64,000 nucleotides of DNA from positions 658,501-722,500 of the forward strand of contig NZ_MQUC01000003.1 in the NCBI RefSeq assembly GCF_002994045.1, in the 5' to 3' direction. The notes under the pieces are model-generated. The model had not been told where the DNA came from. It was given only the letters and a program-made list of their open reading frames with translations, and made no database searches. The first letter of the stretch is position 1. Every line of letters begins with the position of its first letter. Origin of the DNA: Nonlabens agnitus (lineage in GTDB: Bacteria; Bacteroidota; Bacteroidia; Flavobacteriales; Flavobacteriaceae). Below are positions 1 through 60,666 of this stretch, one piece after another. Position numbers and translations under genes: made by a program.

Positions 1-153
1 ACTGTTACTGGTGATGGTGTCAATTTCTGACTGTGCTAATGAGATCGCTTTCGCGAAAGCGGACTCAAAATGAGCCTCTTCAATCACGGCAAACGGTGCC
101 GTTTGAAAAGGCGTTTCAAACGTCTGTAATAGGGGATTGTTTTCTTTACTCAT
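1..153 (-). CDS. M3 family metallopeptidase (Dcp/oligopeptidase A type), N-terminal fragment
   Basis: The first 51 codons of a gene that runs off the left edge of the window. The product begins MSKENNPLLQTF and continues with FETPFQTAPF and EEAHFESAFAKAI, a pattern I recognise from the start of M3 zinc peptidases (peptidyl-dipeptidase Dcp / oligopeptidase A), which cut short peptides in the cytoplasm or periplasm. No signal peptide is visible. The zinc site (HExxH) lies outside the window, so the family call rests on the N-terminus only. The ATG is at 153-151. The CGCTTTCGCGAAAGCG palindrome at 46-61 lies inside the reading frame and encodes the SAFAKA stretch. Confidence 0.65.
   Translation of the reverse strand, partial: MSKENNPLLQTFETPFQTAPFAVIEEAHFESAFAKAISLAQSEIDTITSNS
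46..61. repeat. CGCTTTCGCGAAAGCG palindrome, inside M3 peptidase gene
   Basis: Perfect 16-bp copy. It is read on the minus strand as SAFAKA in the peptidase N-terminus. Flanks extend it partly (GAT on the left, GACTC on the right). Confidence 0.95.
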
Positions 154-227
154 GGTCGTAAAAGTACGAGCCAGAGGTCTAAGGTTTTATAGGGATTTGT
201 TAAATACTTTCACATTTTTTGGCAATT

Positions 228-467
228 TTAAAGGATAAAATGACCATATGCGAAAAATACTACACCTGACACCACATGAATCCAACCTAAATAATTGATA
301 TCCTTCGTGGTAAACTGGCGATTGATAATGATGGACATGATGATATGAATGGCACCAACCGTCAAAAAATGCCACTTTACAAAATGATGTAATTGGAACT
401 CATAGATCAACCAGATCACAGTCAAACTTATCATGATAATCGAGCTGTAGAGAAAAGGTTTACTCAT
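228..467 (-). CDS. small integral membrane protein, unknown
   Basis: 79 residues, nearly all hydrophobic, with two or three membrane-spanning stretches (about 8-25, 31-47 and 58-77). The only charged or polar parts are short loops such as [11 protein letters not shown] do not recognise a family. Its ATG (467-465) overlaps the end of purE by eight bases, so it is probably translationally coupled to purE and co-transcribed with it. An overlapping reading frame in the same region has no such features. The main alternative is that it is not expressed, but the composition and coupling argue for a real gene. Confidence 0.6.
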
Positions 468-954
468 GAGAACGCATATGCGCTGCAGCGTCTGTCACCT
501 TTTTCTTCAACGTTTCCTTATAGTCCACGATACGATCGCGGATATCTTCTTGCGTGGCGCCTAAGATTTGGGCAGCTAGAATACCTGCGTTTTTGGCACC
601 GTTAAGTGCCACAGTCGCAACTGGAACGCCACCAGGCATTTGCAAAATGGAAAGAACACTATCCCAACCATCTATGGAATTACTAGACTTAACGGGAACA
701 CCTATAACTGGTAATGGAGACAGGCTGGCTACCATTCCAGGCAAGTGTGCTGCACCGCCAGCACCTGCGATGATAACAGCAATACCGCGATTGTGGGCGT
801 TTTTACCAAAATCAAACATTTTTTCTGGCGTACGATGGGCACTAACCACATCTACAACCGTTTCTATCTGTAACTCTTTGAGGACGTCGATGGCGTCCTG
901 CATCACTGGCAGGTCGCTCATTGATCCCATGATGATGGCAACTTTCTTATTCAT
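460..954 (-). CDS. purE: N5-carboxyaminoimidazole ribonucleotide mutase
   Basis: 164 residues, the usual length for a class I PurE. It converts N5-CAIR to CAIR in de novo purine synthesis in the cytoplasm. Family motifs are all present: GSMSD near residue 10 (phosphate binding), SAHRTP near 40 (the catalytic histidine loop), and [12 protein letters not shown] near 63-74. The start is ATG at 954-952. The partner purK, often next to purE, is not adjacent here: the next gene upstream (msrB) is on the other strand and a small membrane protein lies downstream. Confidence 0.95.
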
Positions 955-1082
955 ATGACAAAAATAGCATTTTGCTGGATTACACCACAGCAGATTTGAG
1001 CTCGTCCCAAGTTAAGGCAGATTAACATTGTACCAACAGTGTATGGAACAGTTGTGGATTAACTTTATAAAAAATATTAAAG

Positions 1083-1613: not shown

Positions 1614-1622
1614 TCTATAACG

Positions 1623-1997: not shown

Positions 1998-2029
1998 TCT
2001 AACTAAAGCCTAAGCTGAAATCAAATTTA

Positions 2030-2055
2030 AAAGTCTCAATTCGTTGGGGCTTTTT
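2030..2055 (+). terminator. terminator after msrB pair
   Basis: AAAGTCTC (2030-2037) pairs with GGGGCTTT (2046-2053), two of the pairs being G-T, with an eight-base loop and a T run after the stem. Confidence 0.7.
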
Positions 2056-2096
2056 TTGTTGCAATTGGGAATGTTACGAATTATATGATTCCTGTT

Positions 2097-2171: not shown

Positions 2172-2219
2172 TACTGGTTTATAAGATTTAGTTCAAACCT
2201 GGAGCTGGCGGTGGCGGAA

Positions 2220-2864: not shown

Positions 2865-2903
2865 AAAAAGCAATCATCAATATTGATGCCGTCGGCAGAC
2901 TGT

Positions 2904-4889: not shown

Positions 4890-4905
4890 CGCTTTCGCGA
4901 AAGCG
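4890..4905. repeat. CGCTTTCGCGAAAGCG palindrome, upstream of htpG
   Basis: Perfect copy 35 bases before the htpG start codon, the only intergenic copy this close to a start codon. Confidence 0.95.
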
Positions 4906-4940: not shown

Positions 4941-6830
4941 ATGTCACAACAAGGAAAGATTAATGTAGCGGTGGAGAATATTTTCCCGCTCATCAAAAAA
5001 TTCTTATACAGCGATCACGAGATTTTCCTGCGCGAGCTGGTTTCTAACGCCACAGATGCGACCCTTAAATTGAAACACCTGGCCATGATAGGCGAGGCTA
5101 ATGTAGAGTTGGGCGACCAACAGATTGAGGTGAAAATCAACAAAGAAGATGGAACGTTACATATTATAGACCAAGGTCTAGGTATGACTGAGGATGAGGT
5201 GCAGAAGTATATCAACGACATTGCATTCTCTGGTGCCGAGGAGTTCCTTGAAAAATATAAGGACAGCGCCAAAGATAGTGGGATTATAGGACATTTTGGT
5301 CTAGGATTCTATTCTGCTTTTATGGTGGCTGATAAAGTAGAAATCATCACGAAGTCTTATAAAGACGAGCCAGCAGTACACTGGAGCTGTGATGGATCTC
5401 CTAACTATACGATTGAACCGGCAGAGAAAGAACACTTTGGTACAGAGATCATCTTGCATATAAGCGATGACGAGAAGGAGTTTCTTGAGGAGAGTAAGAT
5501 ACGCGAGCTGTTGACCAAGTACAACAAGTTCATGCCAGTGCCTATCAAGTTTGGTACAAAAACCGAAACTCTTGAAAAGCCAGAAGGAGCCAAAAAAGAT
5601 GACCCAGCACCTACTAAGGAAGTGGACAACATCATCAACAATCCAAATCCAGCCTGGACAAAACAACCTACTGAACTAGAAGATAAAGACTACAAAGACT
5701 TCTACCGCGAGTTATACCCTATGCAGTTTGAAGAGCCGTTGTTCCACATTCACTTGAATGTTGACTATCCATTCAACCTGACAGGAATATTGTACTTCCC
5801 TAAGATGACTGCAGATCTTAACGTGCAAAAGGATCGCATCCAGTTATATCAAAATCAGGTATTTGTCACAGATAATGTGGAAGGCATCGTACCAGAATTC
5901 CTGACCATGTTGCGCGGTGTGATTGATAGCCCAGACATACCATTGAACGTTTCCAGATCCTATTTACAGGCAGATGGTGCCGTGAAAAAGATATCAAGCT
6001 ACATCACCCGTAAAGTAGCCGATAAGTTGAAGTCTTTATTTAATGAAGACCGTGCTGCATTTGAGGAGAAATGGAACGACATCAAGATCGTTATTGAATA
6101 CGGTATGTTGAGCGAGGATAAGTTCTTTGAAAAGTCTGATGCCTTTGCATTGTATCCAACAGTTGATGGTTCATTCTGCACTTGGGATGAGTTGATGGAG
6201 AAAATCAAGCCAGCCCAGACGGACAAGGATGGTAAGACGGTTGTTCTATATGCTTCTAATAAAGAGGCACAGCATAGTTATCTTGCTTCCGCGAAAGCGA
6301 AAGGATATGAAGTCCTATTGCTAGATTCTCCTATCGTATCACACTTGATGCAAAAGCTGGAGCAATCTAAGGAGAACGTCACTTTTGCCCGAGTAGATGC
6401 AGATAGTGTTGATAATCTGATCAAGAAAGAAGAAGAGCAAATCTCTAAGCTTTCTGACGACGAGAAAGAAACTTTGAAGAAGAGCATTACAGAAACCATA
6501 GCAGACACCAGCTATAACGTGCAGGTTGAAGCCATGAGTAGTGATAGTGCGCCATTCATGATTACGCAACCAGAATTCATGCGTCGTATGAAAGAGATGC
6601 AGGCTACAGGTGGTGGCGGTATGATGGGCTTTGGTAACATGCCAGACATGTATAATCTTGTGGTAAATGCAAATCACGAATTGATTCAAGAGATCATGGC
6701 AACAAAAACTGCCAAGAAAAAAGAGCGACTGATCAAACAATCGGTTGATCTTGCAAAGCTTTCCCAAGGATTACTGAAAGGTGAAGCCTTGACAGAATTT
6801 GTGAACAGAAGCTATGAGTTGATTAAGTAA
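4941..6830 (+). CDS. htpG: Hsp90-family molecular chaperone HtpG
   Basis: 629 residues. It is an ATP-dependent chaperone acting as a cytoplasmic dimer. The GHKL ATPase comes first: FLRELVSNATDA (about 28-39), DQGLGMT, and GHFGLGFYSAFMVAD (116-130). The middle domain has the arginine-bearing stretch LNVSRSYLQ near 337, and the C-terminal dimerisation domain follows. Residues near 449 (ASAKAK) are encoded by a diverged copy of the local palindrome. A strong terminator follows, so it appears monocistronic. Start ATG at 4941. Confidence 0.97.
   Translation: MSQQGKINVAVENIFPLIKKFLYSDHEIFLRELVSNATDATLKLKHLAMIGEANVELGDQQIEVKINKEDGTLHIIDQGLGMTEDEVQKYINDIAFSGAEEFLEKYKDSAKDSGIIGHFGLGFYSAFMVADKVEIITKSYKDEPAVHWSCDGSPNYTIEPAEKEHFGTEIILHISDDEKEFLEESKIRELLTKYNKFMPVPIKFGTKTETLEKPEGAKKDDPAPTKEVDNIINNPNPAWTKQPTELEDKDYKDFYRELYPMQFEEPLFHIHLNVDYPFNLTGILYFPKMTADLNVQKDRIQLYQNQVFVTDNVEGIVPEFLTMLRGVIDSPDIPLNVSRSYLQADGAVKKISSYITRKVADKLKSLFNEDRAAFEEKWNDIKIVIEYGMLSEDKFFEKSDAFALYPTVDGSFCTWDELMEKIKPAQTDKDGKTVVLYASNKEAQHSYLASAKAKGYEVLLLDSPIVSHLMQKLEQSKENVTFARVDADSVDNLIKKEEEQISKLSDDEKETLKKSITETIADTSYNVQVEAMSSDSAPFMITQPEFMRRMKEMQATGGGGMMGFGNMPDMYNLVVNANHELIQEIMATKTAKKKERLIKQSVDLAKLSQGLLKGEALTEFVNRSYELIK
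6284..6299. repeat. diverged palindrome copy inside htpG
   Basis: TGCTTCCGCGAAAGCG, two mismatches to the consensus, read as ASAKA. It could be chance convergence in this gene. Confidence 0.5.
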
Positions 6831-6852
6831 TACTGCTCATTTTGTTTTATTG

Positions 6853-8350: not shown

Positions 8351-9433
8351 ATGAAAAAAATAATAGTAGGTGCAGCAGCACTAATGATTGGAGCTGTTGG
8401 TTTCGCACAGTCGAACAACAGTGATGTCGTTTCTACAGGAAATAATAACACGGCTACCGTTTCACAAACGGAAAACAGAAATGATTCTGATATAGATCAA
8501 ATGGGTGATGGGAATCGTGCCAACGTCATACAATTAGGTTTGGAAAACACTTCAGCAATCACTCAAACAGGGAACGGTAATGGGACCTCAGTGGATCAAC
8601 AAGGAGCCTTTCAAGGCGCCGTTATTAGTCAAATAGGTGACGGTAATACTGGAAGTGTATTTCAAAGAGGAGAAGTCAATAATGCCAACATATCTTCTGT
8701 TGGGGATCGTAACATAGTAAGCATCTCTCAATTAGGAGTTCGAAATATGAGTGATGTGATACAATCAGGTAATGACAATGGAGCAACATCTTTTGTGCAA
8801 GGAGATGATAACGATGTGGATATCGATCAAAATGGTGACGGAAACAGTGCGCTTATAGACGCTACTTTAAGCAATCCTTTCTTTTTCTCTAGCCGTAATG
8901 TCATGAGTTCCTTTCAAACAGGAGATGGGAATACATTAGAGTCAAGAGTTTCTGGAGGTAACGACAATAATATTACCTCTACCCAGGATGGTGAATCTAA
9001 TTACTTTAGACTTAGCGTGAGAGGTGATGAAAATACAATCACAGCAGACCAAGATGGAGATAATAATAGAGCTGATTGGGTGGTAAGTGATGGTTATCCT
9101 CCAAGTGCGGATAATAACACGGTGAACCTGACACAAAATGGATTTAGAAATTATGCTACTGGTAGTATTGCTGGAGATAATAATGGAGTGATTGTCAATC
9201 AAATGGGTTCAAACAACAGAGTAGGTACCTCTTGGTTTACTAAAGATGGTGTTGTAATAGTTGGTAATGATAATATTGCAAATATTTTGCAGGATGGAGA
9301 TATGAATCAAGCTTTTTCATCCCAAACAGGCGATTTGAATCAAAGCTACACAACCCAAAGTGGTTTAGGCCATCTCAGCAACATCATTCAATCTGGTGTG
9401 AGCAACATAGCAACTGTAACACAATCCAATTAG
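8351..9433 (+). CDS. large curlin-repeat protein 2
   Basis: 360 residues, signal peptide MKKIIVGAAALMIGAVGFAQ, then curlin-like N-x-(S/A)-x-(V/I)-x-Q-x-G units throughout, ending TVTQSN. The units are less regular in the middle (about 170-300), where longer spacers such as NPFFFSSRNVMSS break the rhythm. It has no leader of its own: it follows curlin 1 after nine bases and is closed by a strong terminator, so the two make one transcript. It could be a second fibre subunit or a nucleator; the sequence does not decide. Confidence 0.88.
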   Translation: MKKIIVGAAALMIGAVGFAQSNNSDVVSTGNNNTATVSQTENRNDSDIDQMGDGNRANVIQLGLENTSAITQTGNGNGTSVDQQGAFQGAVISQIGDGNTGSVFQRGEVNNANISSVGDRNIVSISQLGVRNMSDVIQSGNDNGATSFVQGDDNDVDIDQNGDGNSALIDATLSNPFFFSSRNVMSSFQTGDGNTLESRVSGGNDNNITSTQDGESNYFRLSVRGDENTITADQDGDNNRADWVVSDGYPPSADNNTVNLTQNGFRNYATGSIAGDNNGVIVNQMGSNNRVGTSWFTKDGVVIVGNDNIANILQDGDMNQAFSSQTGDLNQSYTTQSGLGHLSNIIQSGVSNIATVTQSN

Positions 9434-9499: not shown

Positions 9500-10311
9500 C
9501 GTTTATATAGACAGCCTGTGAATGTGTGATAGGGAGATATATTTTAGTGGCGAATTATGTACTTCTCATTGTGAAGTGAGGCTACGTAGTAATGTCCCAA
9601 CTGCGAGTGTATTTAAATTCTTTTGCTTTCGCGAAAGAGAAACCTTTATTTCTAAAAACACGTTAACCATCTGTTGTCAAACAAAACTGATCGTTTCAAA
9701 CCATCGCCTATTATTATAGAACTGTAAAGGATGAAAAACTCGTTTTTCTCAGTTCAAGGCTTTGTTCGATTTAAATATAATGGGTAGGAGGCATATTATG
9801 CATGAGTGCACCTCAATTCTACGAATACTATTGTTCTTAAATTTATTCAGAACATAGTATAACGGCAAAGGTATAATGCGTGTGAGGCGTTCCCTCGCGT
9901 TTGGCTGTTACCTTGCCATTGATTGGTTTTGATGGAGGATGATAGTTATTGTTGATGAATAGTAGCCTCGCTTGGAGCATTTGGAATGCCTTATGCGTTT
10001 TATGCTATGTTCGTGCTAATTGGTGGAGGAAGCGTAGCCTTGCCAAGTATACACTTCTCTATTGATCAAGGCGTTTCACACCTTTGCCGTTCAGGCCAAT
10101 TGAGTAGATCGGGAGCCTGCCTGCCGGCAGGCAGGTCTTGAAATTTTGAAGCGCTTCAGGCTGATTAGTGGTTTTAGCCATATTTACATTCGAATTGATC
10201 GGTGCTCAAGCCTTAAAATTAAAATTTCATAGCGGAGAGCTACGGCCGTAGGCAATTGGCCTGAACTATGATTAATCACAACTTTTTACCTCATATATAG
10301 CATCTTATTCT
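9500..10311. other. long non-coding stretch with nested inverted repeats
   Basis: I find no credible gene in these 800 bases. A 65-codon frame at 9522 has no good start and unlikely composition. Instead there is a decayed copy of the local palindrome (9624-9639), an 11-bp inverted pair AACGGCAAAGG (9861-9871) / CCTTTGCCGTT (10081-10091), and a 13-bp pair TTCAGGCCAATTG (10090-10102) / CAATTGGCCTGAA (10253-10265). Inside the second pair is a perfect 20-bp palindrome at 10116-10135 (CCTGCCTGCC and its inverse), the pair TGAAATTTT (10141-10149) / AAAATTTCA (10221-10229), and TACGGCCGTA (10241-10250). This looks like a small non-coding mobile or cassette-like element, or remnants of several. Confidence 0.6.
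9624..9639. repeat. diverged palindrome copy
   Basis: TGCTTTCGCGAAAGAG, two mismatches to CGCTTTCGCGAAAGCG, in non-coding sequence. Confidence 0.8.
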
Positions 10312-11871: not shown

Positions 11872-12169
11872 GAAAAATTTTTTAGTATTGGGTTATTGTA
11901 ACTGTAAAATAAGTACTCCATTCCTTATCTAGACGAGACCGTGTTTGGTATCAGTCTACTGATTTCTTCCTAAATAGGTATTTTAGTTAAAACAGTGCAG
12001 AGCGTTAATCGTGGAAAAAGAATGCAAATATCATCGCTTTCGCGAAAGCGAGATTAAAAATAGAAACTCTAACAACTAATCTATTCATAAAATCATCTCT
12101 ATTTTACAAAGAGATTAGATTAGGTTAGCCAAATCGCAAATAGTAAAGTAGTCAAAGTCATTTATAGAA
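11872..12169. other. non-coding spacer between curlin units
   Basis: No gene seen. It holds one perfect palindrome copy and AT-rich sequence, and ends where the next leader region begins. Confidence 0.6.
12035..12050. repeat. CGCTTTCGCGAAAGCG palindrome
   Basis: Perfect copy in the spacer between curlin 3 and curlin 4. Confidence 0.95.
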
Positions 12170-15549: not shown

Positions 15550-17064
15550 ATGAATTACTTCAAAAGGCCGCTTGGGCTTATATTGCTTTTGTTGATAGTC
15601 ACCAGCTGTGGTTCTTACTTTAGCCAGCCATTAGACATACAGAACGCGAGAATAGGTGAAACTACAGATGCGACCTACACCTTAAGGAACCTGCCACCAC
15701 CAACAGCACCCGCTGTAGTTGGAGTTTATCGATTTGAAGATCAAACAGGTCAATTTAAGCAAACCGAAAATGGTTCTACCTTTAGTAATGCGGTTACTCA
15801 AGGTGGAACAACAATTCTAATTAAGGCACTTGAAGATTCTCGATGGTTTACACCTATAGAAAGAGAAAATCTAGACAATTTGCTTAATGAACGTCAGATT
15901 ATTAATACGACACGTAAAGATTATGCTCTTCAAACAGGTACTCAACAACAACCTTTACCAGCATTATTATATGCAGGTGTATTAATAGAAGGTGGTATTG
16001 TTTCATATGACACTAACGTATTAACTGGTGGAGTGGGCGCACGATATTTTGGCGCGGGAGGATCCAGTAAATACCGTCAAGATCGTGTCACCATTTATTT
16101 GAGAGCCGTGAATACACAAACTGGTAAAATTGCAAAAACGGTTTATGTTTCTAAATCAATTTACTCACAGGCTGTCGACGCAAGTCTGTTTAGATATGTA
16201 AACTTTAGGCGCTTACTAGAAGCCGAAACTGGATTCACAAGAAATGAACCGGGCCAATTAGCTGTTAAGGAAGCTATCGAAAAGGCTGTTGAAGCATTGA
16301 TAATAGAAGGAATCGAAGTGGGCTTGTGGTACCCTGAAGGAGGTGATACAGTAGCGCAAAAGTTGATAACCGATTATAGAAGCGAAAAAGAAGTTGCAGA
16401 ACGTACAGACGTATATCAACGCGAGCTTCTAGACCGTCGCAGTAAATGGCGCTTTGAAGCAGGTGCGGGTGGTACTTACGCAAATAACGATTTAGGAAAT
16501 CCCTACTATGAATACTCTCTGACTGCAGGTCTAAAGTACAACCTCTCACCATTCTTAGGCATCAATGCCCAGGGTAACGGCTACCGTATTAAAAATACGG
16601 GATTGCTTAATAGGCAATTTGTAAGTACAGACCTGAATTTAGAATTCACCGTTTTACCTTATGAGAAATTCTCCCCTTTTATATATGCAGGTCCAGGAAT
16701 TAATTTTGCTAATAGTTTTAAAATTAGCGACTTTAAGGCGCAAGCAGGCTTAGGGTTTGAGTACTTGATTTCTCCTAGCATTGGAATAAAGGTTTATGGT
16801 GATTACAACGTTGTGTTTAGCGATCAAATGGATTACGAGGTTGCTGGAGTACGTGATGACCAGTACTATAAGTTTGGCGCAGGAATCAATATTTATTTGG
16901 GTAATAATCAGGCAAAAGAAAACTCACCTAATTACATACAACGTCGTGAAGCCAGAGAGCTTAAAAGATTAAGCAAACGGCAAAATGAAAATGATAGCAC
17001 AGGCATTATTGTGGATTCGCTTTCGCGAAAGCGAACTAATCAAAATTCAAATCAAGGACAATGA
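15550..17064 (+). CDS. csgG: curli secretion pore CsgG with extra C-terminal beta-barrel
   Basis: 504 residues against 277 in E. coli. Lipoprotein signal ending LLLLIVTSC (Cys 20). Residues of about 50-280 are the CsgG fold: VGVYRFEDQTGQFK, DSRWFTPIERENLDNLLNER, and NVLTGGVGARYFGAG (a transmembrane hairpin). At the constriction the E. coli Phe56 is kept (STFSNAV), but the residues matching Tyr51 and Asn55 differ. After about 300 a second module of alternating beta strands (RKWRFEAGAGG ... YYKFGAGINIYLG) looks like an 8-strand OmpA-type barrel. A basic tail follows, carrying the local palindrome (SLSRKR). The next gene overlaps by four bases (ATGA). Confidence 0.95.
   Translation: MNYFKRPLGLILLLLIVTSCGSYFSQPLDIQNARIGETTDATYTLRNLPPPTAPAVVGVYRFEDQTGQFKQTENGSTFSNAVTQGGTTILIKALEDSRWFTPIERENLDNLLNERQIINTTRKDYALQTGTQQQPLPALLYAGVLIEGGIVSYDTNVLTGGVGARYFGAGGSSKYRQDRVTIYLRAVNTQTGKIAKTVYVSKSIYSQAVDASLFRYVNFRRLLEAETGFTRNEPGQLAVKEAIEKAVEALIIEGIEVGLWYPEGGDTVAQKLITDYRSEKEVAERTDVYQRELLDRRSKWRFEAGAGGTYANNDLGNPYYEYSLTAGLKYNLSPFLGINAQGNGYRIKNTGLLNRQFVSTDLNLEFTVLPYEKFSPFIYAGPGINFANSFKISDFKAQAGLGFEYLISPSIGIKVYGDYNVVFSDQMDYEVAGVRDDQYYKFGAGINIYLGNNQAKENSPNYIQRREARELKRLSKRQNENDSTGIIVDSLSRKRTNQNSNQGQ
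17018..17033. repeat. CGCTTTCGCGAAAGCG palindrome inside csgG tail
   Basis: Perfect copy, read as SLSRKR near the CsgG C-terminus. Confidence 0.95.
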
Positions 17065-20871: not shown

Positions 20872-21924
20872 CTATTCTGTGATTTCTATTTCAAACATTT
20901 TATGCCAGCGTTTTCCAGTCACAAATAAACGGTTGGTAGACTTGTCATAAGCAATACCATTAAGGACATTATCTTCTTTGTCCCAGTTAGGGATTTGATC
21001 TTTTAAAGTAGTCATGTTTAGGACACCTTCCAGCGCACCTGTTTTGGGGTCTAAAATAAAAACAGCGTTTTCCTGATAGATGTTTGCATAGATTTTACCG
21101 TCAACATATTCCAGTTCATTGATTTTTTCAAACGTCTTTTTATTGGAAACTATCTGGATATACTCCAGCTCTTCATAGGTATCAGGATCCAGTTTCCAGA
21201 TCTTGTCGCTACCATCGCTTTTATACAGAAACTCACCGTCGTTGCACAAGCCCCAACCTTCCTTACTTTGATTGTATTTAAATGTATCAGTTTCATTAAG
21301 GTTAAGGTCATAAACATACCCAAAACGACTTCTCCAGGTCAATTGATACACCTTGTCATCTAGAATGGTAAGGCCTTCTGCAAATATGTCTTTGCCCAGT
21401 TCTTTTTTCTCCAGTACCTCTCCAGTTTCCACTTGTGTGATACGTACATCAGATTCCCCATATTGCCCAGTACTTTCGTATAATTTCCCATTGTGGAACT
21501 CAAGCCCTTGCGTATAAGCCGACTCATCATGAGGGTAAGTGTTTACAATATTGTAATTATAAATCTTTGGTGCTGCAGGATTCATTCGGTTTATGCTCGT
21601 TGCAGCGGTGGCCACCATATTATTGCGGTAGACCACAGCCTTGTAGGTAAGTGTACCTAGAGGTTGGTTAGTTAGCTTTCGCGAAAGCGTATTACCCTCA
21701 GCATCCTCTAATTTACGGGCATTTTGATACCATACGATACTGTCTGCACCCATGGAAGCGTCGTCCACCAAAGAAATTTGCACGGTATCATCATCACTCC
21801 AATTATTTTTTTCATTGGTTATTTCCAGAGAATAGTTGGACTTGAATCGGTCCAACTCTGTTTTACAACTTGATAATGAGAGTGCTACAAAGGCAACTAA
21901 AACGCAATATTTCCAGTTCATCAT
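20872..21924 (-). CDS. glutaminyl-peptide cyclotransferase (glutamine cyclotransferase family), lipoprotein
   Basis: About 350 residues from the ATG at 21924 (MMNWKYCVLVAFVALSLSSC, lipid Cys 20). A longer frame from 21981 would run into the promoter of the SRP RNA gene and adds a poor N-terminus, so I reject it. After an Ig-like stretch, the domain from about 125 on (NTYPHDESAYTQGLEFHNGKLYESTGQYGES) is the five-blade propeller of the plant/bacterial type glutamine cyclotransferase, which turns N-terminal Gln into pyroglutamate. Blades continue with LTWRSRFGYVYD, WGLCNDGEFLYKSDGS and NELEYVDGKIYANIYQ. A palindrome near-copy encodes TLSRKL in the Ig-like part. Confidence 0.9.
   Translation of the reverse strand: MMNWKYCVLVAFVALSLSSCKTELDRFKSNYSLEITNEKNNWSDDDTVQISLVDDASMGADSIVWYQNARKLEDAEGNTLSRKLTNQPLGTLTYKAVVYRNNMVATAATSINRMNPAAPKIYNYNIVNTYPHDESAYTQGLEFHNGKLYESTGQYGESDVRITQVETGEVLEKKELGKDIFAEGLTILDDKVYQLTWRSRFGYVYDLNLNETDTFKYNQSKEGWGLCNDGEFLYKSDGSDKIWKLDPDTYEELEYIQIVSNKKTFEKINELEYVDGKIYANIYQENAVFILDPKTGALEGVLNMTTLKDQIPNWDKEDNVLNGIAYDKSTNRLFVTGKRWHKMFEIEITE
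21674..21689. repeat. palindrome near-copy inside glutamine cyclotransferase gene
   Basis: AGCTTTCGCGAAAGCG, one mismatch, read on the minus strand as LSRKL. Confidence 0.9.
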
Positions 21925-21974: not shown

Positions 21975-22005
21975 TTTGCACAGCTCAAAGGAGACCTTAT
22001 ATTTG
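21975..22005 (+). promoter_or_regulatory. Bacteroidota-type promoter of the SRP RNA gene
   Basis: TTTG (21975-21978), a 19-base spacer, and TATATTTG (21998-22005): an exact match to the -33/-7 consensus. The RNA begins about five bases later. Confidence 0.85.
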
Positions 22006-22009
22006 CACC

Positions 22010-22112
22010 GGGCAAGTCCTACACAACCAGCTCCTGCTGAACTCCTCCAGGGCGGGAACGCAGCAAAGGTAAGCGGTCGTAGCGGTGTGATGTAGGTAGC
22101 TTGCCTTTTTTT
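22010..22112 (+). ncRNA. ffs: signal recognition particle RNA (4.5S type)
   Basis: A bacterial small SRP RNA of about 97 bases. The ends GGGCAAGTCCTAC and GTAGGTAGCTTGCC pair. The apical part carries the conserved Ffh-binding hairpin (CTCCTCCAGGGCGGGAACGC, then AGCAAAGGTAAG). It guides ribosomes making membrane proteins together with Ffh and FtsY. A T run directly after the closing helix (22106-22112) serves as terminator. It sits alone between two divergently placed protein genes. Confidence 0.93.
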
Positions 22113-24553: not shown

Positions 24554-24569
24554 CGCTTTCGCGAAAGCG
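24554..24569. repeat. CGCTTTCGCGAAAGCG palindrome
   Basis: Perfect copy, extended on the left to GAGTT, at the 3' end of the hydroxylase gene. Confidence 0.95.
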
Positions 24570-27244: not shown

Positions 27245-27260
27245 CGCTTTCGCGAAAGCG
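27245..27260. repeat. CGCTTTCGCGAAAGCG palindrome
   Basis: Perfect copy 22 bases after the amylase stop codon, extended to GAGTT on the left and GAGCTC on the right. Confidence 0.95.
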
Positions 27261-34953: not shown

Positions 34954-36516
34954 CTAACTACTGCAACTCAATTGCGATGATCCTGGTTTGTTTCTTGCCC
35001 AATCGGGTCGTTTCACATACCAGTGATCCATTGAAGGCTGGTCGTCATATGGGTTTTTGAGCATCTCATGAACTTCTTTCAACATTTTGTAATTCCCAGC
35101 TTCGGCTTGATCGATGACCATTTGCGCGATGTAGTTGCGCAGCACATACTTGGGATTCGTTTGCTGCATTTGTTTTGTTCTCGCTTTCGCGAAAGCGGAC
35201 TCTTTTTCAAGACGTTTTACATACAAAGTCAACCATTCCATCCAACGGTTTTGGATAGGTGCAGGCATATCCTCAACGTCGTAATAGCTTTTGGAAATGG
35301 TTTGCCACGCGTCTTCAGCGTTTGTGGTATGATTTACTGTGATGAGTTCTCTATAGAAAAGGGTCATGTCAGTCTCGTATGCCACGAGCAGTTCCAGTAA
35401 ATCCTCAAAAAGGCTCTCATCTTGTGGCTCATAGGTTTGCAAACCAAGTTTTGCCTGCATCATTTGCCTGCGTTGAATGGGATATGACACTTTATAGGAA
35501 TCCAGCACACGCTCCAGCGCTTTTGCATCTTCAATAAGCGGAAATAAAGCATTAGCCAACTGCCATAGATTCCATAAACCGATTTCTGGCTGTGCGCCAT
35601 ATCGATACCGTTTATGCTGATTGTCTGTAGTGTTGGGCGTCCAGTTGGGATCATAATCATCCAGCCAGCCGTATGGTCCATAATCAATCGTCAATCCCAG
35701 AATGGATAGATTGTCCGTATTCATTACTCCATGCACAAAACCTGCGCGTTGCCAGTGCATGATGGTGGTCAATGTGGATGTAGCAACTTCCTGAAAAAAT
35801 GTGATGTATTTATCGGGATCGTTAGCATCAATATGAGGGAAATGTTGACGGATCGTATAATCCACCAGCTGCTGCAGTTCTTTGATCTCACCATTTGCAG
35901 CAAAAATCTGAAAATTTCCAAAACGTATAAATGATGGAGCCACACGACAGACTACAGCACCTTTCTCATAGGCGGCATTGCCATCATAAAACATGTCTCT
36001 ATATACCTGCTCGCCGGTAACGGCAAGAGAAAGAGATCTCGTGGTAGGAATACCTAGATGGTGCATGGCCTCGCTACACAAATGCTCACGTATGCTGGAT
36101 CTAAGAACGGCATAACCATCACCACGCCTGGAATAAGGTGTAGGTCCAGCGCCTTTGAGCTGCAATTGCCATATTTTTTGGTCGTTTTCTATCTCGCCTA
36201 TGTTGATGGCTCTACCGTCACCCAATTGTCCAGCCCAATTCCCAAATTGATGACCACCATAATTCATGGCAAAGGACTTGTCATGGTAGTCGCCTTTACC
36301 AACCACCAAATCCTCAAACTTTTCGGTTTCCAGATCATTGTTATTGAAACCTAATTTTTGGGATAATTCTTTACTCACATGAATCAATTCAGCATTTTTG
36401 AATTGCTGGCAATCGACAAGGCTATAGTGCGATTGGGAAACTTTTCTAGGTTCTAAAACTCTAGACGGGTCTGCAGTGAGTTCGTTTGAAAAGGATGATG
36501 GCTGTAATGACTTCAT
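34954..36516 (-). CDS. selO: protein adenylyltransferase SelO
   Basis: 520 residues. SelO is a pseudokinase-fold enzyme that transfers AMP from ATP to protein hydroxyls, linked to redox stress. Signature stretches: YGGHQFGNWAGQLGDGRA near 85-102, LQLKGAGPTPYSRRGDGYAVLRSS near 117-140, and GVMNTDNLSILGLTIDYGPYGWLDDY near 265-290. The C-terminal SCSS carries the cysteine that replaces selenocysteine of animal SelO. The palindrome at 35182-35197 encodes SAFAKA in the C-terminal helical part. Single gene. Confidence 0.95.
   Translation of the reverse strand: MKSLQPSSFSNELTADPSRVLEPRKVSQSHYSLVDCQQFKNAELIHVSKELSQKLGFNNNDLETEKFEDLVVGKGDYHDKSFAMNYGGHQFGNWAGQLGDGRAINIGEIENDQKIWQLQLKGAGPTPYSRRGDGYAVLRSSIREHLCSEAMHHLGIPTTRSLSLAVTGEQVYRDMFYDGNAAYEKGAVVCRVAPSFIRFGNFQIFAANGEIKELQQLVDYTIRQHFPHIDANDPDKYITFFQEVATSTLTTIMHWQRAGFVHGVMNTDNLSILGLTIDYGPYGWLDDYDPNWTPNTTDNQHKRYRYGAQPEIGLWNLWQLANALFPLIEDAKALERVLDSYKVSYPIQRRQMMQAKLGLQTYEPQDESLFEDLLELLVAYETDMTLFYRELITVNHTTNAEDAWQTISKSYYDVEDMPAPIQNRWMEWLTLYVKRLEKESAFAKARTKQMQQTNPKYVLRNYIAQMVIDQAEAGNYKMLKEVHEMLKNPYDDQPSMDHWYVKRPDWARNKPGSSQLSCSS
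35182..35197. repeat. CGCTTTCGCGAAAGCG palindrome inside selO
   Basis: Perfect copy, read on the minus strand as SAFAKA. Confidence 0.95.
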
Positions 36517-38199: not shown

Positions 38200-38215
38200 C
38201 GCTTTCGCGAAAGCG
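38200..38215. repeat. CGCTTTCGCGAAAGCG palindrome
   Basis: Perfect copy, extended to GAGTT on the left, between the convergent BrkB and nhaD genes. Confidence 0.95.
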
Positions 38216-41109: not shown

Positions 41110-44100
41110 CTACGTAGTTATTAAATTTTCTTCTTCCAACCTTAGCAAGGCTTGTCGATATTCTTCTGGCAATACTTTAAGGAAATGTGGTAGTTCCTGC
41201 TTCCAGTTTTCAAGTAATCGTTGAGCTAGCGGACTGAATGTAGCATTGTAATGCTGTTCTATCAAGTCCCTTAACTTATTGATATCTTCAGCATCAGTTA
41301 CTGGATCGATATTTAATCCTTCGGCATTCACTTGACGCTCAAAGGTTTTCTCCTTGTCGTATATGAAAGCAATACCGCCGCTCATTCCTGCTCCAAAGTT
41401 TCTATCTACAGGTCCCAAAACAACGGCGACTCCACCAGTCATGTATTCACAACCATGATCACCTATTCCTTCTACAACCGCTGTAGCACCTGAATTACGT
41501 ACACAGAATCGCTCGCCGGCCTTACCATTGATGTAGGCTTCACCAGCTGTCGCGCCATATAATGCCACATTTCCAATAATGACATTTTCTTCTGGCTTGA
41601 TGGTGGCTTCCTCATGTACCTTCACAATCAGTTTTGCACCTGACAATCCTTTACCTATATAATCATTTGTGTTTCCAGTAACTGATAAGGTAAGGCCATG
41701 CGTCGCAAATGCTCCAAAACTTTGTCCTGCAGATCCTGAAAAATTGATTTTCAAGGTGTTTTCTGGTAATCCTTGAGAGCCGTAGATCTTAGAGATCTCG
41801 TTGCTAAGGATTGCTCCAACTGCACGGTCTTCGTTCGTTATCTTAAAATCTAAAATGGTTTTCTCTTTTCTAAACAATGCTGGGTGCGCTTTACTTATGA
41901 TTTCTAAATCCAACGCATCCTCCATCTGGTGATCTTGCTTTTCTGTATTGTAAAGTTTGGTTCCAGCTGGAACATCAATTTTGTGTAGAATAGGCGAGAG
42001 GTCAATACCTCGAGTTTTATAAAAATCTATGGCTTTGTTTCGATCTAGTTTTCCTACCTGACCCACCATTTCATCTACTGTTCTAAATCCTAGTTGCGCC
42101 ATGATCTCACGCAATTCCTGTGCGATGAAATACATGTAGTTCACCACGTGCTCTGGTTTTCCTTTGAATTTTTTACGCAATTCTGGATTCTGTGTGGCGA
42201 TACCAACAGGACAAGTATTTAAGTGACAAACACGCATCATGATACAGCCCGAAGCTACCAGCGGTGCGGTAGCAAACCCAAACTCTTCGGCGCCCAGTAA
42301 ACAAGCGACAGCAACATCACGTCCAGTTTTCATTTGACCATCGCATTCTACAACGATGCGGTTGCGTAAGTCGTTCATGACTAGGGTCTGTTGAGCTTCA
42401 GCTAGTCCTAGTTCCCAAGGCAGACCACAGTGTTTGAGTGACGTAAGCGGCGATGCACCGGTACCACCATCAAAACCAGAGATCAAAACCACATCGGCCT
42501 TAGCTTTTGCCACACCAGCTGCAACAGTTCCTACACCAACCTCGCTTACCAACTTCACATTAATACGAGCTTCACGGTTAGCCGATTTCAAATCGTAAAT
42601 CAATTGCGATAAATCTTCAATCGAGTAAATATCGTGGTGTGGTGGTGGAGATATCAAGCCAACGTATGGTGTTGAATTCCTAGTTTTGGCAATTTGTGGA
42701 TTTACTTTAGGTCCAGGCAACTGGCCACCTTCTCCAGGTTTTGCACCTTGCGCCATTTTGATTTGAATCTCTGAGGCATTGGTCAAGTAGTTAGAGGTTA
42801 CTCCAAATCTACCAGAAGCCACTTGCTTGATCGCACTGTTTTTCCAGTCACCAGTAGCATCTTTATAGAAGCGTGATTCATCTTCACCACCTTCACCGCT
42901 ATTACTTTTACCACCTATACGGTTCATGGCTACGGCTAGATTTTCATGAGCCTCTGCACTAATAGATCCATAAGACATTGCGCCTGTTTTGAATCGCTTT
43001 ACAATATTGGTCCAAGGCTCTACTTCTTCTAATGGTATGGGATCATAATTTGTAAATTCAAAAAGACCACGTATCGTCATCAACCGTCTGGATTGGTCAT
43101 TGATAATTTCAGAATATTCCTTGTAGGTAGTTGCCTTGTTCGTACGAACGGCTTCCTGCAGTTTAGCTACAGACAATGGATTGAACATGTGGTGCTCGCC
43201 ATTGCGTCTCCAGCGATACTCGCCGCCCATTTCAAGGTCTAGGCTGCCATCGATTTCTTGACGCTCATAAGCTTGTTTATAGCGTTTGTTGATCTCCTTT
43301 TCCAGCTGGTGCAGTCCTACACCTTGAATTCTAGTGGTCGTTTTAGGGAAATAAGCATTCACAACTTCAGTGTTAATACCTATACATTCAAACAATTGCG
43401 CACCACGATAAGAATTAAGTGTGGAAATCCCAATCTTGTTCATCACCTTCAAGATTCCTTTACCAACGGCTTTATTGTAATTTTCTATCGCCTCAAGAGG
43501 TGTGATGGAAGTGTCATTTAGTTCCTCAAGCTGCTCTTCAATAATTTCATTGACCATATAAGGATTGACAGCGCTGGCACCGTAGCCAAACAATAGAGCA
43601 AAATGGTGTACTTCTCGAGGTTCTGCAGATTCGATGATGATGCTGATCTTTGACCTAAGACCCAATCGTTGTAATCCACTGTTAATATGGGAACAAGCAA
43701 GTAAAGCAGGAATAGGCGCAAGTTCTTTGCTCGTATTACGGTCTGATAAAATGATAATGTTGTATCCTTTTTTCGCTTTCGCGGAAGCGGTCTGCAACAT
43801 CTCTTCAAGAGCATCTTCTAATCCATTGTGGCCACGCTTGATGTCGTACAACATTGGGATCTCTGTGATCTTGATATCTGGATTTTGGTAACTTTTTATT
43901 TTGTCCAGATCCTGCTTAGAAATTACGGGATTCTGGATCTTTAATTTTTTACAGTGTGCATCGCTAACTTCAAAAATATTGGCGTCCTTACCTAGAGTCA
44001 AACTTATATCTGTAATGAGTTGCTCTCTAATACCATCCAATGGCGGATTTGTCACCTGTGCGAACAGCTGCTTGAAATAATTATAGATGAGTTGTGATCG

Positions 44101-45612: not shown

Positions 45613-45956
45613 AAACCTTGCTTTTGAGTATCTAAAACTCTTAAATATATCCTAATATAAAGTAAGCCTAACGATTTAAAAAATGGAAGGAACACTTTTG
45701 CCAGATCAGGAAAATGCTGCTTATCAGATTATTAAATAAGGATTAATCGACTGCCAAACTTGTCATATTCCTATTTGAAAAGACAGCTTCTTCAAGCTAG
45801 ATCTGTTAAAGCTAAAATGGTGATTGCAGGTAGGATGGATGGATTTGTTTCGCTTTCGCGAAAGCGAACTTTATATCACACTTTATCAATACCTAACTAA
45901 ACTATAACATCGTGATCTGATAAATATGGATAGATTTGTATCAAGATTCTTTTCCG
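45613..45956. other. divergent promoter region between gltB and TrkA-C protein gene
   Basis: 344 bases with no credible gene. It contains a perfect palindrome copy, AT-rich sequence that must hold the gltB promoter on the minus strand, and the promoter of the plus-strand gene. I cannot place either with confidence. Confidence 0.55.
45851..45866. repeat. CGCTTTCGCGAAAGCG palindrome
   Basis: Perfect copy, longer palindromic context TTCGC...GCGAA, in the gltB upstream region. Confidence 0.95.
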
Positions 45957-49934: not shown

Positions 49935-49950
49935 CGCTTTCGCGAAAGCG
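49935..49950. repeat. CGCTTTCGCGAAAGCG palindrome
   Basis: Perfect copy, 25 bases past the amtB terminator stem and before the DUF2891 gene. Confidence 0.95.
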
Positions 49951-52326: not shown

Positions 52327-53069
52327 AAGTCATTGACCTCAATTGCGATCTGGGCGAAGGCATGAGCAATGACGAGCTCATCATGCCGCACATTTCCTCC
52401 TGCAACATCGCTTGCGGCGGTCATGCTGGCGATGCCGATAGTATAAAATCAAGTTTGCAACTCGCGCAAAAATTTAATGTCAGAGCTGGTGCACATCCAT
52501 CTTTTGAGGATCGGGAAAATTTTGGGCGATTGAAATTGGACTGGTCCAGAGCTCGCTTTCGCGAAAGCGTAACTCGTCAACTTCAACTTTTCACAACCAC
52601 AGCAGCTGATTTACAAATGAAATGGCATCATATCAAGATGCATGGAGCGCTATACCACGCCACGGCTCATGAGGAATCCTTTGCTCAATGGACGGTTGAA
52701 TGGCTTCAAGAGTTTTATCCTGACAAGGCTATTTATAGCTTGCCCAAATCGTTGTTGCATGAAAAATGCAAAGAAGCTGGTCAACCTTTTATTGCCGAGG
52801 TTTTTGTGGATCGTGCCTACTTGAAAAACGGTAGTTTGGTACCTAGATCACAGCAGGAAGCCGTTCACGAGACCACAGAGCAAGCGCTGCATCAATTGAT
52901 ATCTATGGCCCACCATAATCAGGTCACCACGCTAGATGGTGCCAATCTGTTACTAATCGCAGACACCTATTGCATTCATGGTGATAATGTCGAGCTTGTA
53001 AAGCAATTGCCGGTCCTAGTTAAACAGCTGCATCAAAATCAAATTCAAGTTGCCAAATACAAAGCTTAA
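52323..53069 (+). CDS. pxpA: 5-oxoprolinase subunit A (LamB/YcsF family)
   Basis: 248 residues. Signature start DLNCDLGEGMSNDELIMPHISSCNIACGGHAGD, then GAHPSFEDRENFGR, and KMHGALYH near 105. With PxpB and PxpC it forms an ATP-dependent enzyme that opens 5-oxoproline (pyroglutamate) to glutamate in the cytoplasm. The ATG overlaps the transporter stop by four bases. The palindrome at 52554-52569 encodes RFRES (residues 79-83) in a helix near DWSRA. All motifs before and after it are intact, so the enzyme should work. Confidence 0.95.
   Translation: MKVIDLNCDLGEGMSNDELIMPHISSCNIACGGHAGDADSIKSSLQLAQKFNVRAGAHPSFEDRENFGRLKLDWSRARFRESVTRQLQLFTTTAADLQMKWHHIKMHGALYHATAHEESFAQWTVEWLQEFYPDKAIYSLPKSLLHEKCKEAGQPFIAEVFVDRAYLKNGSLVPRSQQEAVHETTEQALHQLISMAHHNQVTTLDGANLLLIADTYCIHGDNVELVKQLPVLVKQLHQNQIQVAKYKA
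52554..52569. repeat. CGCTTTCGCGAAAGCG palindrome inside pxpA
   Basis: Perfect copy, read as RFRES; flanks GAGCT and GTAACTC. Confidence 0.95.
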
Positions 53070-53760: not shown

Positions 53761-54610
53761 GGCAACTATTGTACATCCAGGATTTTACTGCAGCATCCAG
53801 GATTTGGGTAGGTTAGACTATAGAAATGTTGGCGTGCCACAATCTGGTGCAATGGACATGCAACTCGCTAAAAAGACAAATACCATTTTAGGCAACAGCG
53901 AAGAAGCTGCGGTTCTTGAAATGATCCTCATGGGCGTGACAATCTCTTTTGAAACCAAGACCTATGTCTCAATATCTCAAAATGTTGACGGCGCCACGCT
54001 TAATGGTAAGACGATCTCTATGGATAAAGCCATTGCCGTGGAACCTGGCGATGTGCTTAAAATCGGTCACGTCACTCATGGTAATTTTGCCTATGTAGGT
54101 ATTTCTGGCGGATGGAAAACCAAGCCGATCTTGGCTAGTAGGTCGATGTTTGCTGGTATCACGGCCAGTGGTAAGCTCTCAAAAGGTGATACCGTGCCTT
54201 ATGAAAATTGCTTTGAGGTTGTTGAGGAAACTCGCTTTCGCGAAAGCGAACTAAATCAAAATACCCTAATCGATGTTTTTGAAGGTCCAGAATTTCACTT
54301 ACTGTCTGCAACTCATCAAGATCAGTTGCTTAGTCAAACTCTTGAGGTATCTAAATCCTGGAGTCGTATGGCTTTCAAGGTTTCTACTGGTACGCCGTTT
54401 GATTTACCAGAACTTAGAACGGTACCCGTAATGCCCGGAACAGTGCAGTTGACACCAGATGGCGATCTTTTATTCCTGATGCGAGATGCACAAACAACTG
54501 GAGGCTATCCACGTGTATTACAGTTATCTAATGATGCGATTGATAAATTTTCACAACTGCGTACTGGAGTTTCTTTTAACCTGAGTTTAAGGCCTATTAA
54601 CCATTCATAG
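53753..54610 (+). CDS. pxpC: 5-oxoprolinase subunit C (KipA family)
   Basis: 285 residues. Family features: VHPGFYCSIQDLGRLDYRNVGVPQSGAMDMQLAKKTNTILGN near the start, EPGDVLKIGHVTHGNFAYVGISGGW, ASRSMF, and GYPRVLQLSNDAIDKFSQLRTG near the end. The ATG overlaps pxpB by eight bases, completing the operon DUF2891-transporter-pxpA-pxpB-pxpC. The palindrome at 54233-54248 is in frame and encodes RFRESE (residues 161-166) in a linker between subdomains. Confidence 0.94.
   Translation: MNKATIVHPGFYCSIQDLGRLDYRNVGVPQSGAMDMQLAKKTNTILGNSEEAAVLEMILMGVTISFETKTYVSISQNVDGATLNGKTISMDKAIAVEPGDVLKIGHVTHGNFAYVGISGGWKTKPILASRSMFAGITASGKLSKGDTVPYENCFEVVEETRFRESELNQNTLIDVFEGPEFHLLSATHQDQLLSQTLEVSKSWSRMAFKVSTGTPFDLPELRTVPVMPGTVQLTPDGDLLFLMRDAQTTGGYPRVLQLSNDAIDKFSQLRTGVSFNLSLRPINHS
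54233..54248. repeat. CGCTTTCGCGAAAGCG palindrome inside pxpC
   Basis: Perfect copy, read as RFRESE. Confidence 0.95.
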
Positions 54611-57256: not shown

Positions 57257-57275
57257 GTAGGTTTTTAAGGTAGTT

Positions 57276-57291
57276 CGCTTTCGCGAAAGCG
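57276..57291. repeat. CGCTTTCGCGAAAGCG palindrome
   Basis: Perfect copy, context AGTT...AATT, between the small gene and the protease gene. Confidence 0.95.
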
Positions 57292-60300: not shown

Positions 60301-60637
60301 TACATCGCGATGGACCAAGCCTACGTTAGCAATGATCAATGAGGCTCAGTACAGTGATGGACACTGTTTTGCCGCAGGTTATAGCGATTTGAAAATAGGA
60401 ACCACGGTAGGTATGCCTATACCAGGTACTTGTAGTTTTGCCGGTTGGGAGCGTTTGCCAGATGGTTCTCGTTGGGGCGTCGTTCCAGTGAGTGCAAAAG
60501 ACATCAATGGTGACTGGATGGAAAACAATCAAACCAATCCTATGATACAGGTCAAAAACATGCCTTCTACCATCATAAACGGGACAGATGAGCAATTGGA
60601 TCGTGCCATTCAAGAACTTCTTAAGGAAGTAGAATAG
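57398..60637 (+). CDS. tricorn-like S41 family protease
   Basis: 1079 residues from the ATG at 57398; earlier in-frame starts at 57365 or 57380 would spoil the signal peptide MKSIVFLASFFISIFATAQ. Two beta-propeller regions (about 20-600: SPDGSQIVFTYKGDLYKV, WSADGQRIAFASNRYGNFDVYVMDANGG) are followed by a very charged KD-rich linker (about 565-600), the C1 domain, PDZ (about 780-865: GILITEVLTGGPLDKAKFDIQPGMIIQKIDG) and the S41 catalytic core (DTRFNGGGDLV, NEAQYSDGHCF with Ser 986). It resembles archaeal tricorn but is exported, so it degrades peptides in the periplasm or outside. Confidence 0.93.
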   Translation: MKSIVFLASFFISIFATAQNDAGWLRHSAISPDGSQIVFTYKGDLYKVASTGGNPQQLTFHQAHDYMAVWSADGQRIAFASNRYGNFDVYVMDANGGSATRLTFHSSDEEPYTFSADGSQIYFGGLRQDTAQHRQFPTGSQPEVYSVPVAGGRVDQLFTIPAEELAVNSDGSTILYQDKKGGENDWRKHHTSSIARDLWAYDVASKSHKMLTTFNGEDRQPVYGANDQTVYYLSEQSGSFNVFKMNLNEPTKSTQLTNFETHPVRFLSYGNGVLSFGYDGKLYTMKEGEQPKKLVVNITTQAIDNSDKFISVNGGVQEMAVSPNGKEIAFIARGEVFVTSVEESFTKRLTNTPEAEQFVTWGPEGKSVVYSSERDGKWSIFKTEIERKEEPFFFAATLLKETPVIENDKDNYLARYSPDGKKLAFIEDRKTLKVKDIKTGEEVVLLTPEELFHMRDGDKYFRWSPDSKWLLVDWSLSLSNSDVLLMAADGSKRVNLNESGYYDSNPVWVNDGKQMLWFSNRDGLKSYATSGSTQSDVYSMFFTQDAWDEFNLSKEEYDLMKEIKKMSEKKSDEDKDDKNKDKKNKDKKEKEPVKDLTFDWDEMKDRVKKFTIHSSNLSDAVLSKDNSKLYYLTRFEDKLDLWETDLRTQETKMKMKLGASSGNLEWDADRENLFLLSSSKISKIDPEKEKKEGVDISGEMEYDAVAERQAMFDHVWLRTDKIFYHSNFHGIDWNLMKTEYEKHLPYIGNSTEFAEMLSEMLGELNVSHAGARGSSYSIDNEDETASLGIFMDYDHQDDGILITEVLTGGPLDKAKFDIQPGMIIQKIDGQDIQSNTDIAKYLNRKTGKFTLLEIKDPNKKDNLVITVKPISLGEERSLLYKRWVKTNEKEVEKKSNGKLGYVHIPGMSDGPYRDVYDKMMGKYHDRAGVIVDTRFNGGGDLVADLAAFFTGQPFIIYATEQKVVGGEPTSRWTKPTLAMINEAQYSDGHCFAAGYSDLKIGTTVGMPIPGTCSFAGWERLPDGSRWGVVPVSAKDINGDWMENNQTNPMIQVKNMPSTIINGTDEQLDRAIQELLKEVE

Positions 60638-60650
60638 AGTAGGTAGAGTT

Positions 60651-60666
60651 CGCTTTCGCGAAAGCG
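60651..60666. repeat. CGCTTTCGCGAAAGCG palindrome
   Basis: Perfect copy 13 bases after the protease stop codon, extended GAGTT...AAATT. Confidence 0.95.

Follow-up and report, generated by a model that had tools for sequence, protein, structure and literature searches.

Near-invariant, evenly spaced copies of a 16-bp palindrome suggest a genome-wide signal, perhaps for recognition of own DNA, in Nonlabens agnitus

In Neisseria and the Pasteurellaceae, a receptor prefers DNA that carries an uptake signal, recombination spreads and repairs the copies of that signal, and the flanks of the copies are under weaker constraint. Chi sites are short and oriented and have GT-rich surroundings, while parS and Noc-binding sites are of a TTTC...GAAA flavour, in a register that differs from that of the palindrome described here. 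According to the accessible portion of one source (PMC1939737), uptake sequences are non-palindromic, are recorded as evenly spaced and fall within open reading frames in 65% of cases in H. influenzae and 35% in N. gonorrhoeae; the same portion gives 1008 copies of the E. coli Chi sequence GCTGGTGG in 4.64 Mb. Transformation of Riemerella columbina, a flavobacterial relative, favours the species' own DNA; the accessible part of that report (PMC7965970) establishes no motif behind this preference. For the cyanobacterial palindrome HIP1, excerpts of a further paper (PMC4390886) describe a model of DNA methyltransferase action with mismatch repair that reaches saturation near one site per 1000 nt, and variants in which mismatches cluster at the outermost base.

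The palindrome described here was predicted from 64,000 nucleotides of N. agnitus DNA (“the window”, meaning the whole stretch that was analyzed), in which 15 perfect and four near-perfect copies had been claimed. A pattern search allowing at most three mismatches returned 19 matches with starts identical to the claimed ones, comprising 15 perfect copies, two with one mismatch and two with two (Table 1). That such copies are not expected by chance was borne out by 100 dinucleotide shuffles of the window, which gave a mean of 0.13 matches and a largest value of 2. An extension to GAGTTCGC...GCGAACTC had been described as common and is carried in full by none of the window copies. The left arm GAGTT is present in four (24554, 27245, 38200 and 60651), and AACT directly follows the 16-mer at 17018, 45851 and 54233; the 26-mer with GAGTT...AACTC arms is a consensus rather than a common exact word. 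Note that htpG, which served as orthology anchor and tree gene, lies outside the element itself.

Table 1. Copies of the palindrome and associated features in the window (a dot marks features given without strand).
Feature	Position	Strand	Remarks
Perfect palindrome CGCTTTCGCGAAAGCG	46..61	.	classed genic, weakly (short predicted gene)
Perfect palindrome, intergenic	4890..4905	.	~50 bp upstream of htpG
htpG (HSP90 chaperone)	4941..6830	+	NF003555, 663 bits vs cut-off 371
Variant copy, 2 mismatches, within htpG	6284..6299	.	pattern search
Variant copy, 2 mismatches	9624..9639	.	pattern search
Second hairpin CCTGCCTGCCGGCAGGCAGG, free-standing copy	10116..10135	.	
Perfect palindrome, intergenic	12035..12050	.	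pattern search and gene calls
Perfect palindrome near gene 3' end	17018..17033	.	kept in G007 and G020
Variant, 1 mismatch at outer base, genic	21674..21689	.	14-mer kept in G007 and with one mismatch in G020
Perfect palindrome, between convergent genes	24554..24569	.	kept in G007 and G020
Perfect palindrome, intergenic	27245..27260	.	kept in G007 and G020
Perfect palindrome, genic	30937..30952	.	pattern search and gene calls
Perfect palindrome, genic	35182..35197	.	kept in G007; two core substitutions, no gap, in G020
Perfect palindrome, between convergent genes	38200..38215	.	kept in G007 and G020
Variant, 1 mismatch, in glutamate synthase large-subunit gene	43774..43789	.	
Perfect palindrome, between divergent genes	45851..45866	.	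kept in G007 and G020
Perfect palindrome, intergenic	49935..49950	.	kept in G007 and G020
Perfect palindrome, genic	52554..52569	.	14-mer kept in G007 and G020
Perfect palindrome, genic	54233..54248	.	14-mer kept in G007 and G020
Perfect palindrome, intergenic	57276..57291	.	14-mer kept in G007 and G020
Perfect palindrome, intergenic	60651..60666	.	kept in G007

A genome-wide count, which had been proposed as a check, showed the same excess: the 3.216-Mb N. agnitus genome holds 676 perfect 16-mers, or one per 4.7 kb, and none of the reversed control. With up to two mismatches allowed, the numbers were 863 for the palindrome and 4 for the control, and the inner 14-mer is present in 762 copies. 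Sites were then described in a 464-kb sample of N. agnitus DNA, consisting of the window and 20 stretches that are each 20 kb long. Every site forms a symmetric element of ∼60–70 bp, in which a near-invariant 16-bp palindrome lies between two arms of ∼25 bp. The ∼25 bases 5' of the palindrome are C-poor on both strands, in genic and intergenic copies alike. On each strand, C makes up 9% and G 31% of the positions 10–20 bases 5' of the 14-mer, as against 20% each in the background, and the bias is mostly gone by ∼30 bases. Genic (58) and intergenic (46) copies do not differ in this bias, which genic copies show on both sides after alignment to the gene strand, and five control palindromes had no such arms. 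C-poor arms were also found in congeners, Dokdonia, the genome G250 and the copies on metal islands described below; in G234 they are barely C-poor (C 0.21 at 10–20 bases and 0.12 at 2–10 bases, background 0.23, 15 sites). Sites with up to two mismatches numbered 121 in the 464 kb, of which 99 were perfect and 22 were variants. The arms of these variants do not differ from those of perfect copies, and 15 of their 32 mismatched positions fall at the outermost base.

The 26-base consensus folds into a hairpin of 11 bp that is closed by a CGCG loop. Four composites were found in the 464 kb in which a second hairpin of 20–21 bp, resembling the free-standing CCTGCCTGCCGGCAGGCAGG hairpin, is placed exactly beside the CGCG centre with the outer half-sites intact. 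One composite site is also present in G007. Two further inserts at the same CGCG-adjacent point were found in G004, and G009 has the plain palindrome there. Together with three copies that have one additional base, the four composites make seven sites, all of which lie at least 1 kb from every other site (P 0.016), and they therefore occupy site positions.

To place copies relative to genes, gene calls from a simple script were used, with one further copy at the edge of a stretch left unclassed. As claimed originally, both genes and intergenic regions contain copies: of 105 classed, 59 (56%) are genic and 46 intergenic. Genic copies are found at all relative positions within genes and in all three reading frames (29, 19 and 10 of 58). 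Intergenic copies number 8 in 8.3 kb between convergent genes, 28 in 27.6 kb between tandem genes and 10 in 12.8 kb between divergent genes, about the same number per kb in each case. Copies are enriched between genes and show no preference for gene orientation.

The even spread claimed for the window (coefficient of variation, CV, of spacings 0.34) was also seen in the 464-kb sample, where the CV was 0.43 as against 0.92 for random placement, a value as low being reached in none of 2000 simulations. Only 1 of 100 spacings was below 1 kb, with 25.8 expected. For the first 94 listed positions on the main contig the CV was 0.87 due to five gaps of over 12 kb, and was 0.52 without them. Because all but one of the 20 stretches (20 kb each) taken across the chromosome contain copies, no single domain holds them; the lower-GC stretch L070 contained no 14-mer and two variants only. 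Among congeners, 1 of 92 spacings was below 1 kb (20.2 expected), these data coming mainly from one orthologous region. Exclusion is probable in G250 (2 of 19 spacings, 6.1 expected) and is absent from G234 (2 of 14, 2.4 expected), the spacing of which was indistinguishable from random placement (CV 0.71 versus 0.80 simulated, 20 sites).

Conservation was assessed against G007, a close species with a mean identity of 92.9% over 45.8 kb of the window, in which 27 of 28 sites have the same number of mismatches as in N. agnitus. For counts of core and arm substitutions, alignments of ∼500 bp or less were left out. At sites picked in N. agnitus, the core differed at 1 of 464 bases, the bases 14–37 from the site centre at 98 of 1341, and sequence at 100–299 bp at 751 of 10804. 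At sites picked in G007, the core differed at 2 of 480 bases and the surroundings at 760 of 10973. Core divergence is 0.2–0.4% versus 7% in the surroundings, a 16- to 30-fold reduction.

Orthologous positions were compared within the genus using 292 comparisons, which share branches and are non-independent; alignments shorter than 400 bp and sites 40 or fewer columns from an alignment end were left out. The 14-mer was kept in 18 of 21 comparisons with flanks more than 90% identical (44% expected), 20 of 22 at 80–90% (10% expected), 88 of 127 at 70–80% (1.6% expected), 46 of 93 at 60–70% (0.3% expected) and 20 of 29 at 50–60%. Among the 100 comparisons with a differing 14-mer, 49 were a single substitution without a gap and 38 had an alignment gap, and differing sites of the latter kind may have originated by small indels. 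Upstream of htpG, a copy of the inner 12-mer is present in 18 of 20 congeners, in 17 of these at 37–50 bp. At sites intact in both genomes of a pair, using pairs that share branches and are non-independent, arms changed as fast within the genus as distant sequence (289 of 2194 versus 2781 of 21856 bases). C–T exchanges made up 12% of arm differences as against 29% in distant sequence, while A–G, A–T and G–T exchanges were up. Because the arms vary at the background rate yet seldom with C, they are held to composition rather than sequence. These data show that constraint on the core keeps the element at the DNA level; its chromosomal places are fixed and its exclusion distance is ∼1 kb.

The palindrome is confined to few relatives. 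It is present in 180–737 copies in each of 22 other searched genomes of the genus, and near-complete congeners of equal size (2.9 Mb) carry 255 and 653 copies, a 2.5-fold difference in density. Among other relatives, the 16-mer was found in 1 of 13 genomes of the family (four copies) and in 0 of 23 of the order. The 14-mer exceeds 100 copies in 5 of 299 family genomes, namely three of this genus, G234 (408) and G250 (857); of the remainder, 56 have 1–19 copies and 238 have none. Across 395 sampled genomes of the class, N. agnitus included, no other genome had more than four copies. The preferred base beside the shared core differs, giving TTCGC in the genus of N. agnitus and TACGC in Dokdonia and G250. 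Two named Dokdonia loci carry three copies each within 11.5 kb and have the TTACGC flank in common with G250, on which basis G250 is probably a Dokdonia. Two related genera, represented by G234 and G250, share the palindrome. An HtpG tree of 30 genomes united this genus, G250, G234 and G188 in one clade with support of 96/91. G188 has nine copies. The tree requires two changes, most simply one gain and one near-total loss in G188. Four features go beyond the original prediction, namely arms poor in C, the exclusion distance, the conservation of positions and the restriction to one clade.

No report of the palindrome was found in an open-access library searched for Nonlabens, Dokdonia and iterated or over-represented palindromes, the matches for the two genera being judged by title and the start of the abstract; the sole text match to TTTCGCGAAAG concerns ThiH, judging by its title. 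No palindrome of eight or more bases stood out in other genera when one 20-kb stretch was screened from each of 16 genomes, a test of low sensitivity because one of five stretches from motif genomes was missed (L020, from G234). The 6-mers CTATAG and TCCGGA and, clearly, CTGCAG in L110 were in excess in this screen. Nothing comparable was found in 60 kb of each of G188, G155, G144, G131 and G120. The over-represented words CTTCAGAA (G131) and CTGCTGAAG (G188) resembled codon usage and were dropped.

The core constraint, composition-bound arms, indifference to genes and mutual exclusion together suggest that the element acts at the DNA level as a signal to a putative factor. We consider the palindrome an inherited DNA address that most closely resembles an uptake or self-recognition sequence, with a probability of about 40%. 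A dedicated protein or complex would read the element as the address of “own” DNA. By analogy with Neisseria and the Pasteurellaceae, a sequence-specific DNA receptor would favour signal-bearing DNA, recombination would spread and mend the copies, and the C-poor arms could serve a strand-parting step. Such a system would also account for the even spacing, since a fragment that already carries one copy would gain nothing from another. Like the DUS, USS and DUES of the Neisseriaceae and Pasteurellaceae, the palindrome has hundreds of clade-specific, evenly spaced copies with flank variants, many of them in open reading frames but enriched between genes, and is sharply peaked on one consensus; the genus-specific base beside the core resembles a dialect. 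The preference of R. columbina for its own DNA is a further point in favour. The features by which uptake sequences are recognized (over-representation, clade specificity, even spacing, and occurrence in and between genes) were all found, except for spacing in G234. To our knowledge, no known uptake sequence has arms that merely avoid C, whereas C scarcity marks the arms here. The element is also a perfect palindrome, unlike the known uptake sequences covered in the accessible portion of PMC1939737. The 2.5-fold range of density among congeners and the atypical spacing and arms of G234 also speak against an uptake function. The element is not classed as an uptake sequence because its palindrome and arms do not match that class. 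It is possible, though we hold this with less confidence, that it represents a new kind of chromosomal address, with a long palindrome, composition-bound arms and ∼700 fixed, mutually exclusive places, acting as a self-DNA signal for uptake or recombination. No established signal of this sort in Bacteroidota was found in the open-access library searched.

A chromosome-maintenance site is nearly as likely as an uptake or self-recognition signal. Candidates within the cell are a Chi-like recombination signal, a hairpin for replication restart or priming, or a site for a nucleoid or chromosome-folding protein; a palindromic site would function in either direction, and its C-poor arms would stay unstructured when single-stranded. 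Even spacing, fixed positions, orientation blindness, the 11-bp hairpin and the presence of copies in 19 of 20 stretches across the chromosome are all consistent with such a site, and arms that follow composition rather than sequence suggest a single-stranded step. The lack of any copy in 238 of 299 family genomes, the near loss of the palindrome in G188 and the 2.5-fold variation between congeners argue against it. Chi has a similar density and a strand-asymmetric composition around the site, but the palindrome here is long and orientation-free, with strong mutual exclusion below 1 kb. Although parS and Noc sites are 14–16 bp palindromes of similar flavour, they number a few dozen rather than hundreds. 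A ParB- or Noc-like reading is disfavoured, since one strong HTH_ParB match was found in each of 31 of 31 genomes and no strong additional one accompanies the motif; second, weak matches were found in two genomes with the motif (G014 and G019) and two without (G065 and G074). The polarity of a KOPS-like segregation site is impossible because a perfect palindrome has no strand bias.

Creation and maintenance of the palindrome by a DNA methyltransferase acting on a TCGCGA or CGCG core, with methylation-directed mismatch repair as proposed for HIP1, is unlikely. Like HIP1 (GCGATCGC) and the alternate HIPs of cyanobacteria, this is an iterated, maintained palindrome of one lineage with uncertain function; its exclusion distance fits the saturation of the HIP1 model near 1 kb, and its variants share the concentration of mismatches at the outermost base. 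It is iterated above expectation but lacks the GCGATCGC or alternate GC-rich form at about one per kb, being 16 rather than 8 bp long and 4–5 times less dense. A methyltransferase site is much shorter than this core, and the model leaves the C-poor arms unexplained. A survey of PF00145 (C5) and PF01555 (N6/N4) matches, from which site specificity is not readable, showed matches to PF00145 to be missing from 10 of 25 motif-rich genomes and those to PF01555 from 6 of 16; G006, G007 and G009 had neither. The methylation model is weakened by these results but not closed.

Spread of a mobile repeat (REP/RAYT or another MITE) followed by decay is very improbable. The palindromic form, the hundreds of copies, the enrichment between genes and the hairpins inserted within some copies would all suit a mobile repeat, and REP and BIME elements are likewise short palindromes in hundreds of copies. 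Y1_Tnp matches were found in 18 of 25 motif-rich genomes, but also in 7 of 15 genomes without the motif, and were lacking in seven motif-rich ones (N. agnitus, G001, G007, G008, G019, G022 and G234). The co-occurring RAYT transposase suggested originally is thus without a Y1_Tnp match in the N. agnitus genome. Different species have orthologous positions in common, 49 of 100 differing comparisons are gap-free single substitutions, and the ratio of 99 perfect copies to 22 with one or two mismatches is unlike decay. Unlike REP or BIME with RAYT, the element combines fixed orthologous positions with half of its copies in genes and no transposase match in its own genome; the fixed positions and the missing Y1_Tnp strongly disfavour a mobile REP/RAYT origin. 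The general kind proposed originally, a highly iterated and maintained palindrome, stood, while the REP/RAYT and KOPS-like suggestions did not. PF00145 and PF01555 methyltransferases were not consistent companions of the motif, and a nucleoid-protein site stays a candidate. A bidirectional terminator or promoter element is equally improbable despite the hairpin and the enrichment between genes, since 59 of 105 copies are genic, convergent regions are no denser than tandem or divergent ones, and an Rfam scan of the window at gathering thresholds matched SRP RNA only and no palindrome copy.

Several genera with low counts carry clustered copies, among the places listed. Ten stretches (L010–L019) from seven low-count genomes consist of DNA common between genera at ∼65–97% identity, and in the two islands read for genes, L010 and L019, copper, cadmium/zinc and Czc-type efflux genes were found. 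Because clustered copies lie on DNA common to different genera, copies outside the clade often mark transferred DNA, most simply explained by transfer from a motif-bearing donor. The palindrome may serve as a marker of such transfer, with the two clusters read for genes lying on heavy-metal efflux islands. We know of no named system that explains the composition rule of the arms. Motifs kept at hundreds of genomic places usually reveal a whole-cell process, such as uptake, recombination, mismatch repair or chromosome folding, and with this palindrome the Bacteroidota would have a self-DNA or chromosome signal that is amenable to study.

In composite copies of the palindrome, the CGCG centre is directly adjoined by an inserted second hairpin of 20-24 bp, which has either the sequence CCTGCCTGCCGnnCAGGCAGG or another sequence. 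The positions of these inserts within sampled DNA stretches are listed in the table, together with separate features of the window. One of the composites is also present in the closely related congeneric genome G007. Among the window features, a full-length large subunit of glutamate synthase was found in only 5 of the 23 genomes of the genus.

Composite palindromes in sampled stretches (L numbers) and separate features of the window
Feature	Location	Remark
Palindrome with hairpin insert	L069 ~10414	
Palindrome with hairpin insert	L076 4156	
Palindrome with hairpin insert	L076 10507	
Palindrome with hairpin insert	L082 15065	
Palindrome with hairpin insert	L126 13201	
Palindrome with hairpin insert	L126 16494	
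Curli-subunit-like gene	window 8351-9433	CsgA/CsgB models, score under curated cut-offs
Curli-subunit-like gene	window 12527-13717	CsgA/CsgB models, score under curated cut-offs
Bacteroidales small SRP RNA	window 22003-22110	sole Rfam match in window
Glutamate synthase large subunit gene	window 41110-45612	

The 37 kb viral contig IMGVR_UViG_3300040781_000495 (L046, L063, L066) carries six copies of the palindrome, a density approximately equal to that of the host, and the flanks of pooled viral sites are moderately C-poor. For genera with few copies (genomes G122, G131, G145, G259, G245, G033 and G155), the palindromes were observed to be grouped on islands (L010-L019). These palindrome-bearing islands are ∼65-97% identical between genera, and both of those read for genes (L010 and L019) carry copper/cadmium/Czc efflux genes. 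Among the matches listed, the same pair of palindromes, spaced 933 bp apart, occurs in at least five genomes (G122, G131, G145, G259 and G204).

Long repeated words were also noted in G155 (L166-L168) and G144 (L169-L171), such as ACGGTCTTGGTTAA (n = 5) and GGACTAGTTCCACC (n = 10). Genome G120 (genus g95; L110, L175-L177) has its own iterated motif, the non-palindromic CTTCGGAAATAT; in 60 kb of this genome, CTTCGGAAA is present in 14 copies versus 0.27 expected. The G120 motif CTTCGGAAATAT may be a signal similar in type to the palindrome but not related to it.
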